Of a DNA stretch of 64,000 nucleotides, positions 31,177-38,473 are shown piece by piece. The stretch spans positions 62,001 through 126,000 of the forward strand of contig BPHB01000001.1 of the NCBI GenBank assembly GCA_026003335.1, written 5' to 3'. Position 1 is the stretch's first letter. Each line of letters begins with the position of its first letter. The notes beneath the pieces are model-generated. The model saw only the letters and a list, made by a program, of their open reading frames with translations. It was not told the origin of the DNA and searched no databases. The position numbers were made by a program, and so were the translations under genes. Source of the DNA: Chitinophagales bacterium. Lineage in GTDB: Bacteria; Bacteroidota; Bacteroidia; Chitinophagales; CAIOSU01.

Positions 31177-31253
31177 CAGGTAAAGCTGTCGTGGATTTCT
31201 GTAACTGTTTTCAGTTCATTTTCACTTACCCCGTTTTGTAGGCATAAAAAGTA

Positions 31254-31288
31254 AAAAGCCGCCAGCTTATTAGCTGCTGGCAGCTTTT
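31254..31288 (+). terminator. Terminator after nuoN, shared with the convergent gene
   Basis: An AAAAGC-x-GCCAGC stem pairs with GCTGGC-x-GCTTTT around a nine-base loop (31267-31275), with A and T tracts on both sides so it can work in both directions. It lies between the converging nuoN (ends 31176) and the secreted protein gene (ends 31315). Confidence 0.8.
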
Positions 31289-31314
31289 CACCGGACCACG
31301 AAACGAATGTATCT

Positions 31315-32262
31315 TTATCTTTTTACAAATTCACGCATGCCCATCTGCTGTTTGCTTGCGTTTTCTATACAAAAAAAATAAGCACCGCTGATCCATTCGG
31401 AAATGTCAATTTCCTGCTGTATGGACGGATCAGATATGTGCTCACGATACACTACCCTTCCGAAGAAGTCATAAATGGTTAAAAAGACATTGGTTTCAGG
31501 TTTTTGCAGATTGGCAATGACGCGAATTTTCTGATCAGAGAGATTGAAGAAATAAAATTCAAGCGGAGTGGTTGCTTCAGGGGGTACATCCGGATTGTTT
31601 CCTGCGGGTGTGCTTTTTTCCGGCACTGGACGGTAAGCAGTTATCAGATTGGGCTGTACATTAGCTACTAGCAATGGATTTTCCTCGTATATCTTACGGG
31701 AGAGATCTATAGCGTTTGCTGAGTCAGCAGAAGTTGTTTCAAAAATGTAGGTAAAAACTTTTTCCGGCTCAGCCTGCTCAGGGAAATTAATGGCATGCAG
31801 TTTATACGCTTTTTTAAACAAGGCATAACCTTCTCTGTTGAGCTGTTCGGGATGAAAATTTACCAGCAGTAAGTTGTCAAGGGTGAACCATGCAGCAGCG
31901 TCATAAGTCAGTTCCGGGAATAAGGTAAGCACCGGTAATTCGTCTGCAAATCGGCTTTGTTGGAGGATGTGATTTTTTATCTGTTCTTTTTCAGATTCAG
32001 TACACCCATTATTAAGATAAATGATGTATATAGCATATTGGTATCCTTCATGCGTGAAGGCATATTTCACACAGTTATCCTCCGGCAGTTGGAGAGTGTG
32101 GTTATCATCAGGAATACGAAAGGCAAGCACATCCGGCTGGCTACTCCAGTAAAAGGGTTGTCCATTAACATACCACCATAGGCGCGATGAAGATTGAGCA
32201 TGTGCCCATAATGACAAGCACAGGCAACACGACAGTAAAACATATTGGAGTTTCAGATTCAT
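31315..32262 (-). CDS. Secreted orphan subtilase-prodomain-like protein with T9SS sorting domain
   Basis: The 315-residue protein has a signal peptide (about 1-22, ending in AHAQ). Residues about 27-207 resemble the prodomain half of the neighbouring S8 protease, including LLLVNFHPEQ...YALFKKAYKLHAI (127-158) and NPLLVANVQPNLI (195-207), which matches the GFRAAP...KYGLRLY and ENVLFAQPNRI segments there. There is no catalytic domain. After a Pro-rich linker comes a Por-type sorting domain (about 240-315). It may act as a protease inhibitor or folding helper in trans; this is inferred. It lies 17 bases downstream of the protease gene on the same strand. Confidence 0.72.
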   Translation of the reverse strand: MNLKLQYVLLSCCLCLSLWAHAQSSSRLWWYVNGQPFYWSSQPDVLAFRIPDDNHTLQLPEDNCVKYAFTHEGYQYAIYIIYLNNGCTESEKEQIKNHILQQSRFADELPVLTLFPELTYDAAAWFTLDNLLLVNFHPEQLNREGYALFKKAYKLHAINFPEQAEPEKVFTYIFETTSADSANAIDLSRKIYEENPLLVANVQPNLITAYRPVPEKSTPAGNNPDVPPEATTPLEFYFFNLSDQKIRVIANLQKPETNVFLTIYDFFGRVVYREHISDPSIQQEIDISEWISGAYFFCIENASKQQMGMREFVKR

Positions 32263-32279
32263 GGTCCGGATGAAAATAG

Positions 32280-34229
32280 TTATCTGGATTTAATAAACTT
32301 TTTCGTGATGGAAGTTTTATTGTTGAAGCATTTCACAAAGTAAATGCCCCGGCTCAACGCTGATACATCCAGCCGCATGTCACCTGTGCCTTGAGGTAAT
32401 TGCACGTAAAGCAAAACGGTGCCATGGATATCGGTGATAATCATTTTGCAGTCAGAAACGTCAGCAGGTAACACATAGTGCACCGGGAGTATGTCAGCAA
32501 CCAATGAGGGCATACCCAGCAGCATGGATGCCTGTGTGTTGTTGGCGGCAAACGTATTGACCTTACCGCTGAGTGCCTGGGCTGCATTTATCCTTCCATA
32601 TCCAACCTGTATGCTGTGACCGGGTCGCTGCTGATCACCATAATACTGATATATATCAGAGTGCACTTTGTCAGCAGAAGCGGTGAGACGGTCTACTACC
32701 TCCTGCCATGTAAGGTGAGGCTCTTTCTCCAATAAGAGTGCAGCAACACCGGATACAATGGGGGCAGAAGCTGAGGTTTTCTGAAGAGAAATATAGTCGC
32801 CCGATGCATAGCCGCTGCTTCCGGAGATATCGGTGGTATAGATGCACACTCCGGGTGCAGCCAGTTTGAGGCGGGAGCCATAGTTTGACCCCCATGGGGC
32901 CCCTGTATTCCACTGATCAGAAGGGGTCTTTTTATAATCATCCGGAGTAGAAGCGGCAACGCTTACCACCTGTGCATACGTGGCCGGGTATTGCGGGTAA
33001 TCCATATCATTATAATTATCATTTCCATGTGAAGCCACCACCACAATACCCAGCGGCATGCCATTGCGTATTCTGCCCTCAGTAACCAGGTTCTGAATCT
33101 CTGCTTCTATAGCCGGACTTTCAAAATAGGAGCCGAAACTACAGTTGATGATATCCACATCAAAGGTTGTGCGCGCTTTTTGCATCGCCAGCACCACTGA
33201 AGCTTCTGAACCGTCAATCAGAAAAGGAACAAGTCGGGCTCCGTAGGCTACTCCGGCCGAGCCCAGATTATTGTCGCGTTTGGCACCGATGATCCCGGCT
33301 ACTGCCATTCCATGAGCCTGTGTGTTATCGGTATAGTAATAATTGGAAGCATCATAGGGAGAATTGTTGATGCAATCCCAGCCCGGAATGAGCTGGCCTG
33401 ACATGTCGGGGTGATGAAAGTCAAACCCAAAAAAATCCAGCACGCCTACTTTAATGCCTGTTCCGGTGAAACCCTGGTCCCAGACTTCAGTAACGTGTGC
33501 ATCGGTAAGATGTTCACCCAGCAATTGTGCGCAGGAAACCATCTGTCCTCTTGGATTTTGAAAGTCACCGGTGTAGGAATCATGCGAACCTTGTGGCTCG
33601 AACAAATTGATTCGGTTAGGCTGTGCAAATAAGACGTTTTCTTTTTCCTGCGCTGCTATTTTCATGGCAATGGTGCCACTGTGTTCGGAAAGGGAATGGC
33701 TTTGGCAACTAAATACAAGCACCTTGCCTTCAGTAGGGGCATCACTGTTGTATAATCTCAATCCATATTTGTGCATCAGGTATTGGAGATATGCCGAGTC
33801 AGGAGCTGCTCTGAAGCCCACCAGAAGCTGATTATTGATAAACAAGATACGTTCCTGGGCCGCATTTTCCGGATGCACTTTGGAAATGGCTATGAGTAGC
33901 TCGGCACCGGGAATGGTCTGGATGTTTTTAATGAAAGATTTTTTTAGCTCTTCTTTTGAGGGATCAGCCACCTGACCAATTAGCAGCTTTTTCCCATTGG
34001 GCACGTAGGATGAGCGTATAAGAATGTCCACGTTGGGCTTTATCGTTTCGGTTTCTCTGGGGACCAAAAAAACGGAGAGGTCTTTTCTGACCAGCCAGGA
34101 TTCTTCTTTCCGATGCAGATGATCAATAATTCTGAGAGTATCCTGAGAGTAAGCAGGTATCCGTCCCAGGCCGGAAAAAATCAAAAACACAACACACCAT
34201 CCGTAGCGTCCACAATCCATACCGCACAT
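32280..34229 (-). CDS. T9SS-exported S8 (subtilisin-type) serine protease
   Basis: The 649-residue protein has a signal peptide, a prodomain (about 32-210), and a subtilase domain (about 235-560). The triad is Asp265 (VGVLDFFG), His306 (QAHGMAVAG) and Ser486 (KTSASAP); Asn403 in SHGNDN forms the oxyanion hole. The usual GTSMA is KTSASA, a deviation next to the nucleophile. A Por-type sorting domain ends the protein (about 575-649, with SALSRGIYFVK). It is likely secreted through the T9SS to the surface or medium. The downstream gene encodes a prodomain-like partner, 17 bases away, so the two are probably co-transcribed. Confidence 0.9.
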   Translation of the reverse strand: MCGMDCGRYGWCVVFLIFSGLGRIPAYSQDTLRIIDHLHRKEESWLVRKDLSVFLVPRETETIKPNVDILIRSSYVPNGKKLLIGQVADPSKEELKKSFIKNIQTIPGAELLIAISKVHPENAAQERILFINNQLLVGFRAAPDSAYLQYLMHKYGLRLYNSDAPTEGKVLVFSCQSHSLSEHSGTIAMKIAAQEKENVLFAQPNRINLFEPQGSHDSYTGDFQNPRGQMVSCAQLLGEHLTDAHVTEVWDQGFTGTGIKVGVLDFFGFDFHHPDMSGQLIPGWDCINNSPYDASNYYYTDNTQAHGMAVAGIIGAKRDNNLGSAGVAYGARLVPFLIDGSEASVVLAMQKARTTFDVDIINCSFGSYFESPAIEAEIQNLVTEGRIRNGMPLGIVVVASHGNDNYNDMDYPQYPATYAQVVSVAASTPDDYKKTPSDQWNTGAPWGSNYGSRLKLAAPGVCIYTTDISGSSGYASGDYISLQKTSASAPIVSGVAALLLEKEPHLTWQEVVDRLTASADKVHSDIYQYYGDQQRPGHSIQVGYGRINAAQALSGKVNTFAANNTQASMLLGMPSLVADILPVHYVLPADVSDCKMIITDIHGTVLLYVQLPQGTGDMRLDVSALSRGIYFVKCFNNKTSITKKFIKSR

Positions 34230-37295: not shown

Positions 37296-38402
37296 TTAAT
37301 AGGCAATTCTGGTTTCACCGTTGCAGAAGATTTTGGGTGAACTGGGTACGTTGTAGTAGAAAACTGCCTTATTGTCCAGCTTATAGTAGCTAACTGTCCC
37401 TTGTGATATGGGCTGATAATGGCCGTCAATGTAGCCCCATAGTTTATTATCCAAGTCTTTGATTACTACAATATCGCGGTCAATCTGATAGCTCTCCGGA
37501 ATATAGGAAGCCAATTTTTCGCTTTTTCCCCGACTAAATACGTAAAAGTGGTTAAAGTTATCGGCATATACCAGCATATTGTCCTGAACTTTGTAAAAGG
37601 GCGGGGGGGTATCCATTAGTTTATATATCCGGTTTTCGTGAAATACTTTAAACCGCCTGTCACTGTCGGATACAAACGCAACCATATCTTCACCGGTTTC
37701 ATAACTGAGGGGTGGTAAATTTTCCAGGGTTTGGCGGACTCCCTTGTAAAAGACCTTGAAATCGCCTACAAAGTCAACGTAGGCTATGATATTGCGGTGT
37801 ATTTTATAGGATTGGACATAGGTTCCCTGTTCAATAACTCCGCTTTCTCCGTTGTAAAGGTATTTGAATTCATAATCCGGATCCAGGAAGGTTAATATGT
37901 TTTCATTGGCACTAAATTCCGATATGGTGCGATTGTCAAAAGACGAGAGCACACCATTATAAAAAAAGATAAACGAGTTCAGATAATCATTAAAAGCCAC
38001 AACATTGTCCCCAAAGGCAAGACGGGTTAAGCCTATATCATTGCTTTTTCTGCCAAGATAATGCACTTTGCGGCCATCGAAAACATACACATGGTCACCA
38101 GTGTTCACAAACACCAGAATGGTATCTGTGGCATAATAACTTTCGGGAGCGAATTCCTGCAAGCGGTATGTAGTGCCCTGGTAGTAAAGTTTAAAACTGG
38201 ATTGATAATCTACATAAGCCACATAATTGGCTCCCACCTGAAATGATTGAATCTTCTGGTGCTCTTGCTTAATCAGGTTGCCATTGTCATAGATATAAAA
38301 GTAATCCCATTCAGCACCACGTGTGTCTTCAAAGGCTGTCAGACACTGAGCAGAGGTGCAGAACGCACGGCACACAAATAACAGAATGAAAATGATATGC
38401 AT
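37296..38402 (-). CDS. Secreted protein of about nine 35-residue tandem repeats
   Basis: The 368-residue protein has a signal peptide (about 1-19, ending in TSAQ). From about residue 52 to the end it consists of about nine units near 35 residues with the pattern S-[YF]-x-x-x-x-N-[IV]-[IV]-A-[YF]-x-D-x-x-x-x-F-K-[VL]-[FY]-Y-x-G. The last unit ends at the C-terminus without a sorting domain. A beta-propeller or beta-barrel of repeated blades is the likely fold. I chose ATG 38402; a TTG at 38435 gives a longer N-terminus that overlaps the divergent gene. It runs into the radical SAM gene on the same strand. No family was recognised. Confidence 0.65.
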   Translation of the reverse strand: MHIIFILLFVCRAFCTSAQCLTAFEDTRGAEWDYFYIYDNGNLIKQEHQKIQSFQVGANYVAYVDYQSSFKLYYQGTTYRLQEFAPESYYATDTILVFVNTGDHVYVFDGRKVHYLGRKSNDIGLTRLAFGDNVVAFNDYLNSFIFFYNGVLSSFDNRTISEFSANENILTFLDPDYEFKYLYNGESGVIEQGTYVQSYKIHRNIIAYVDFVGDFKVFYKGVRQTLENLPPLSYETGEDMVAFVSDSDRRFKVFHENRIYKLMDTPPPFYKVQDNMLVYADNFNHFYVFSRGKSEKLASYIPESYQIDRDIVVIKDLDNKLWGYIDGHYQPISQGTVSYYKLDNKAVFYYNVPSSPKIFCNGETRIAY

Positions 38403-38473
38403 TATCGGTATGAAATATAGTGTCTTCTTTTGCAACCAGCAAAGAAACGATTATTTTGGCGGGGAGGCTGCTT

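Follow-up and report, generated by a model that had tools for sequence, protein, structure and literature searches.

A T9SS-tagged stand-alone prodomain encoded beside an S8 subtilase in a Chitinophagales family, a candidate trans-acting regulator of the protease

In a 64,000-nucleotide stretch of DNA from a Chitinophagales bacterium, hereafter the window, a 315-residue protein was confirmed by profile comparison to be a homologue, along the full prodomain length, of the prodomain of the S8 protease encoded next to it. We favour the reading that this orphan prodomain protein acts in trans on the catalytic domain of this protease, most likely as an inhibitor or regulator, and put its probability at roughly one half. 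Both open reading frames lie on the minus strand exactly where an earlier note on this DNA had placed them, the protease followed after 17 bases by the orphan (Table 1). Downstream of the orphan lies a strong hairpin with a U run, and a scan listed no terminator-type hairpin in the 17-base gap, so that the two genes probably form a single two-gene transcription unit. Upstream on the same strand, at window positions 37296-38435 (-), a 379-residue protein matches the 10-bladed beta-propeller domain (PF21734, 2.9e-58).

Table 1. Features of the protease-orphan pair, with positions counted from the first base of the window
Feature	Position	Strand	Evidence
Orphan prodomain protein, 315 aa	31315..32262	-	ORF; orthologues in 6 further genomes of the same GTDB family
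Orphan residues 1-23, Sec-type signal peptide	32194..32262	-	By inspection: hydrophobic core, AHA-Q
Orphan residues 27-110, N-lobe of the prodomain, containing the conserved motif YxNGxxxYWxxQxDxxAFR	31933..32184	-	Alignment, model
Orphan, further stretch of the two-lobed prodomain region (27-212), after the N-lobe	31627..31902	-	Profile alignment, model, structural matches
Orphan residues 235-315, T9SS type A sorting domain	31318..31560	-	PF18962 1.4e-6, over cut-off
S8 subtilase, 649 aa, with own prodomain and T9SS tag	32280..34229	-	ORF, Pfam, alignment
Protease residues 31-214, prodomain homologous to the orphan	33588..34139	-	hhalign with shuffles; PF22148 sub-threshold, E 0.15
Protease residues 256-545, catalytic domain; D265, H306, S486, oxyanion N403	32595..33464	-	Pfam, alignment
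Protease residues 590-646, T9SS type A sorting domain	32292..32462	-	PF18962 1.2e-7
Strong hairpin and U run immediately downstream of the orphan gene, probable terminator for both genes	31250..31292	-	z -5.4

The orphan is built of a signal peptide, in which no lipobox was seen by inspection, a two-lobed region (residues 27-212) and, some 22 residues further on, a type A T9SS sorting domain. This last part is the only domain that Pfam names in it (Por_Secre_tail, PF18962, 1.4e-6), and the TIGR04183 score of 20.5 of 23 bits falls just below cut-off; the prodomain itself matches no curated Pfam prodomain family above cut-off, nor does NCBIfam give it a name. Por_Secre_tail was above the Pfam cut-off in the protease as well (1.2e-7), bearing out the earlier note's claim that both proteins carry sorting domains. 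The full-length model of the orphan matched the T9SS C-terminal domains 8glk and 8qb1 in Foldseek (E about 0.02-0.05), and every full-length orphan found has the tag. With a Por_Secre_tail domain on each protein and a T9SS in the genome, which encodes SprA and the PorU sortase, both window proteins are predicted T9SS type A cargo. Peptidase_S8 (PF00082) was matched only by the 649-residue protein of the pair (1.2e-39), whose D265, H306, S486 and oxyanion N403 were invariant in an alignment of 14 subtilases, identifying it by sequence as an S8 subtilase with an Asp-His-Ser triad. No S8 match was found in the orphan, where only a linker and the sorting domain follow the prodomain; it lacks a catalytic domain, as had been noted.

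The resemblance between the orphan and the adjacent prodomain, first read from the two sequences in the earlier note, became much clearer with profiles. BLASTP of the window pair aligned orphan residues 20-268 with protease residues 26-268 at 19% identity (E 1e-6), which is weak alone. Profiles built from 7 orphans and 7 protease prodomains were aligned by hhalign over 191 columns with Prob 99.2 and a score of 122.6, against a maximum of 24.3 among 200 column-shuffled prodomain controls, and in whole-genome searches an orphan-only profile detected the neighbouring protease prodomains of five relatives (E 4e-20, 6e-18, 3e-17, 4e-16 and 7e-8). The stretch originally singled out as the best, residues 127-207, is truly homologous, but the similarity starts earlier and includes both lobes. 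An N-lobe motif is common to the two classes, as WWYVNGxxxYW in orphans and LYWYVDGxxxxW in the proteases of one genus (g3). The last strand tells the classes apart, with PNR in all proteases versus PNL or PNM in orphans, and the docking edge may therefore have changed. After PNL or PNM the family's orphans have an invariant Tyr, where proteases have Phe, Val or Leu; as a speculation, this Tyr could be a P1-like residue. In more distant subtilases of the order (L050, L060, L061 and L062), the N-terminal 200 residues appear to comprise a pair of prodomain-like lobes in succession, of which the second ends in AEPNY or a similar sequence.

Structure prediction, which had been proposed as a check alongside profile alignment, gave a confident model of orphan residues 24-215 (mean pLDDT 83.6, pTM 0.78) from a mixed alignment of orphan and protease-prodomain rows, with a C-lobe in the order strand-helix-strand-strand-helix-strand. 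When the alignment held no protease rows, the full-length model came out poor (pLDDT 59) and its fold search returned mostly sorting-domain matches; because it has the same C-lobe order, at low confidence, the fold is not simply a product of the protease rows. In a first Foldseek search of the N-domain model, subtilase prodomains were not among the top matches, and they appeared only in a second look with VIA-align. There, ORF2 (3wqb) ranked second among the C-lobe matches (Z 6.7 over 95 of 99 residues), and the PC1/3 prodomain (9fie, Z 6.6) and POIA1 (1itp and 1v5i, Z 6.4) were also found. Since ACT, RRM and other unrelated ferredoxin-like folds tie with the prodomains at Z 6-7, a prodomain could not be recognised from its fold alone, though the fold agrees with the homology. 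A mixed-profile sequence search of the PDB returned no chain, ORF2 included, at E up to 10.

The pairing is conserved throughout the family. In seven of the seven family genomes examined, from three genera, the orphan gene lies directly 3' of the protease gene on the same strand, at a spacing of 17 bases, about 0, or roughly 50-90 bases; in one of them (G005) the contig ends within the protease. The flanking genes vary between genera though the pair stays. Named by inspection of their translations, those of the window's genus are nuoN and a gene for an MBL-fold protein; a second genus (g2) has an asparagine-synthetase-like gene together with one for a putative lipoprotein, and g3 has either a capsule-type or a TonB-type gene as well as a fasciclin-like protein. 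The protease of the nearest outgroup (G018, 37% identical) has no orphan-type partner beside its gene. In the tree of prodomains the orphans group together in a single clade with support of 98/97, which shows one origin, while several branches are long and the inner order is unsure. Judged by omega between close g3 species, the orphan is under purifying selection (0.06-0.09 vs 0.04 for the protease). Family-wide pairing and purifying selection, together with the homology and the confident model, uphold the earlier structural reading of a stand-alone, exported prodomain with a predicted T9SS tag. They also bear on the reading that the orphan is a functionless degenerate duplicate or the remnant of a split or frameshifted protease. 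It does correspond to a protease prodomain without the catalytic part, but intact reading frames of ~300-320 residues with signal peptide and sorting domain occur in three family genera and in one genome outside the family, and both the low omega and the single origin speak against decay, making a remnant highly improbable. A pseudogene was rejected on the grounds of purifying selection, the single clade and the conserved export signals.

In the genome outside the family (G055, from another family of the same order), a 302-residue protein has the orphan build and a truncated second copy occurs as well, each close to the end of a contig. Two or three orphan-type genes can be counted there (L089:7855-8763, L090:7941-8425 and G055:C51:4-120), all at contig ends, a position which hints at a repeated locus breaking the assembly. 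Searches of G055 turned up no protease closely related to that of the window, its S8 proteases are of other types as far as read, and the pairing may therefore not be universal outside the family; since the assembly is 92% complete and the copies sit at contig ends, the partner protease may instead be missing from it. Orphan-type proteins for which no protease of this subtype was found, as well as the class-specific PNL/M in place of PNR, would suit a prodomain-derived protein that now has another surface role, as adhesin, co-receptor or scaffold, with no link to the protease encoded beside it. The state of the G055 assembly weakens the first of these points, and the strict pairing within the family despite changing neighbourhoods argues against such a role, which we consider quite doubtful. 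A scan of genome contigs with a single window protein as query gave no match, and an alignment-based scan recovered five of the known relatives. As searches across the phylum (a sample of 395 genomes) and the order (298 genomes) added no clear member to those of the family and G055, the orphan family looks narrow. In other Bacteroidota, two small lipoprotein-like proteins of 108 and 117 residues (L133:3800-4126 (+) and L134:4514-4867 (-)) consist of little beyond a Fervidolysin_NPro-like prodomain (PF22148, 9.6e-7 and 1.9e-4), and no subtilase was recognised among the nearby reading frames that were read; from their sequences these would be further stand-alone prodomains, possibly inhibitors.

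A role of the orphan as inhibitor or as post-secretion chaperone is a reasonable proposal, with ASP/ORF2, SUB1-ProM and POIA1 as precedents. Under the reading that we favour, the T9SS would carry out the S8 protease, prodomain included, and would also export the orphan independently as a second prodomain, whose own tag would deliver it to the protease's compartment. The orphan would then dock on the catalytic domain at the cis-prodomain site and restrain the enzyme in the periplasm and on the cell surface once the cis prodomain has been cut off. As the protease retains a prodomain, inhibition that controls the mature enzyme is a likelier task than obligatory folding. Known inhibitory prodomains insert their C-terminal tail into the active site; as the linker and sorting domain follow the orphan prodomain, its tail would be free only after removal of the tag. 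PorU is known to remove the sorting domain from type A cargo elsewhere, and such a cleavage would free the orphan tail. Another S8 protease of the same genome (G000:C1:135210-136034, ~9 kb past the window end; PF00082 1.5e-36) is a possible off-target.

The orphan could also be an external chaperone that the protease requires in trans to fold or mature, as Aeromonas ASP requires ORF2, and that replaces a decaying cis N-lobe. The N-lobe is better kept between genera in orphans (25-45% identity) than in proteases (10-24%), and most of the WYVNG motif has been lost from the window protease. ORF2 is the second-ranked structural match, and the gene order is that of asp-orf2, with the partner 3' and adjacent (PMC5638518). 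ASP, however, depends on ORF2 for want of a propeptide, whereas the window protease has a full prodomain, and the profile search matched no PDB chain at E up to 10; we judge this alternative to be unlikely. Since the orphan N-lobe is conserved while the cis N-lobe decays, the orphan may, after a prodomain duplication, have taken over the work of that lobe. The pair would then be a T9SS-specific divided zymogen, in which each protease matures with one cis and one trans prodomain, each brought to the surface and displayed there by a T9SS tag of its own; we regard this extension as unlikely.

A close bacterial counterpart is ASP/ORF2 of Aeromonas sobria, in which a subtilase gene is directly followed by a separate gene for a secreted, propeptide-like partner with a fold comparable to that of the orphan model. 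ORF2 both chaperones and inhibits ASP, with a reported IC50 of 84 nM, and ASP, which has no propeptide of its own, needs it (PMC5638518). The window protease differs in having a prodomain at residues 31-214, and ORF2 is small and ends in an inhibitory tail, whereas the orphan is two-lobed, carries a T9SS sorting domain and has no detectable sequence similarity to ORF2. In Plasmodium, SUB1-ProM is a stand-alone propeptide-like protein with a signal peptide, encoded beside a protease, SUB1, that keeps its own propeptide, which it resembles; it is a potent and selective inhibitor of SUB1 (PMC6993865). It is, however, eukaryotic and has no bacterial sorting domain, and its inhibition was shown experimentally, whereas that by the orphan is predicted. 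Stand-alone I9-type inhibitors include POIA1, yeast IB2 and Arabidopsis SPI-1, and TgMIC5 is a further case (PMC6993865). These share with the orphan a prodomain fold without a protease, POIA1 being among its structural matches, and no sequence match between them and the orphan was found. All four are single-lobed and are not known to have a T9SS tag.

Tannerella forsythia potempins and KLIKK proteases are likewise encoded in Bacteroidota operons that combine a secreted protease with a dedicated inhibitor (PMC7296668). The orphan is not a potempin: those proteins are small lipoproteins whose genes precede the protease gene, whereas the orphan is encoded downstream, is T9SS-tagged and shows no lipobox on inspection. 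We know of no prodomain relation for potempins. The proteases of the SpeB, staphopain and Bfp pairs are cysteine proteases of unrelated folds and are not known to be T9SS cargo; Spi is SpeB-propeptide-like. In SpeB/Spi, staphopain/staphostatin and Bacteroides Bfp/Bfi, too, a protease is transcriptionally coupled to a small adjacent inhibitor gene (PMC3462683). Stand-alone prodomain mimics are an established kind, as POIA1, IB2, SPI-1, TgMIC5, SUB1-ProM and ORF2 attest. Those of subtilases have been described chiefly in eukaryotes, with ORF2 in Gammaproteobacteria and a few other genera. The open-access literature that we searched contained no account of a stand-alone subtilase prodomain that has a T9SS tag and lies next to a protease with a prodomain of its own. 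A conserved bacterial case, with a prodomain retained on the protease and T9SS signals on both partners, would show control in trans of a Bacteroidota surface protease after export, and the protease-orphan pair offers a small natural system for asking whether a prodomain serves as foldase, inhibitor or both.
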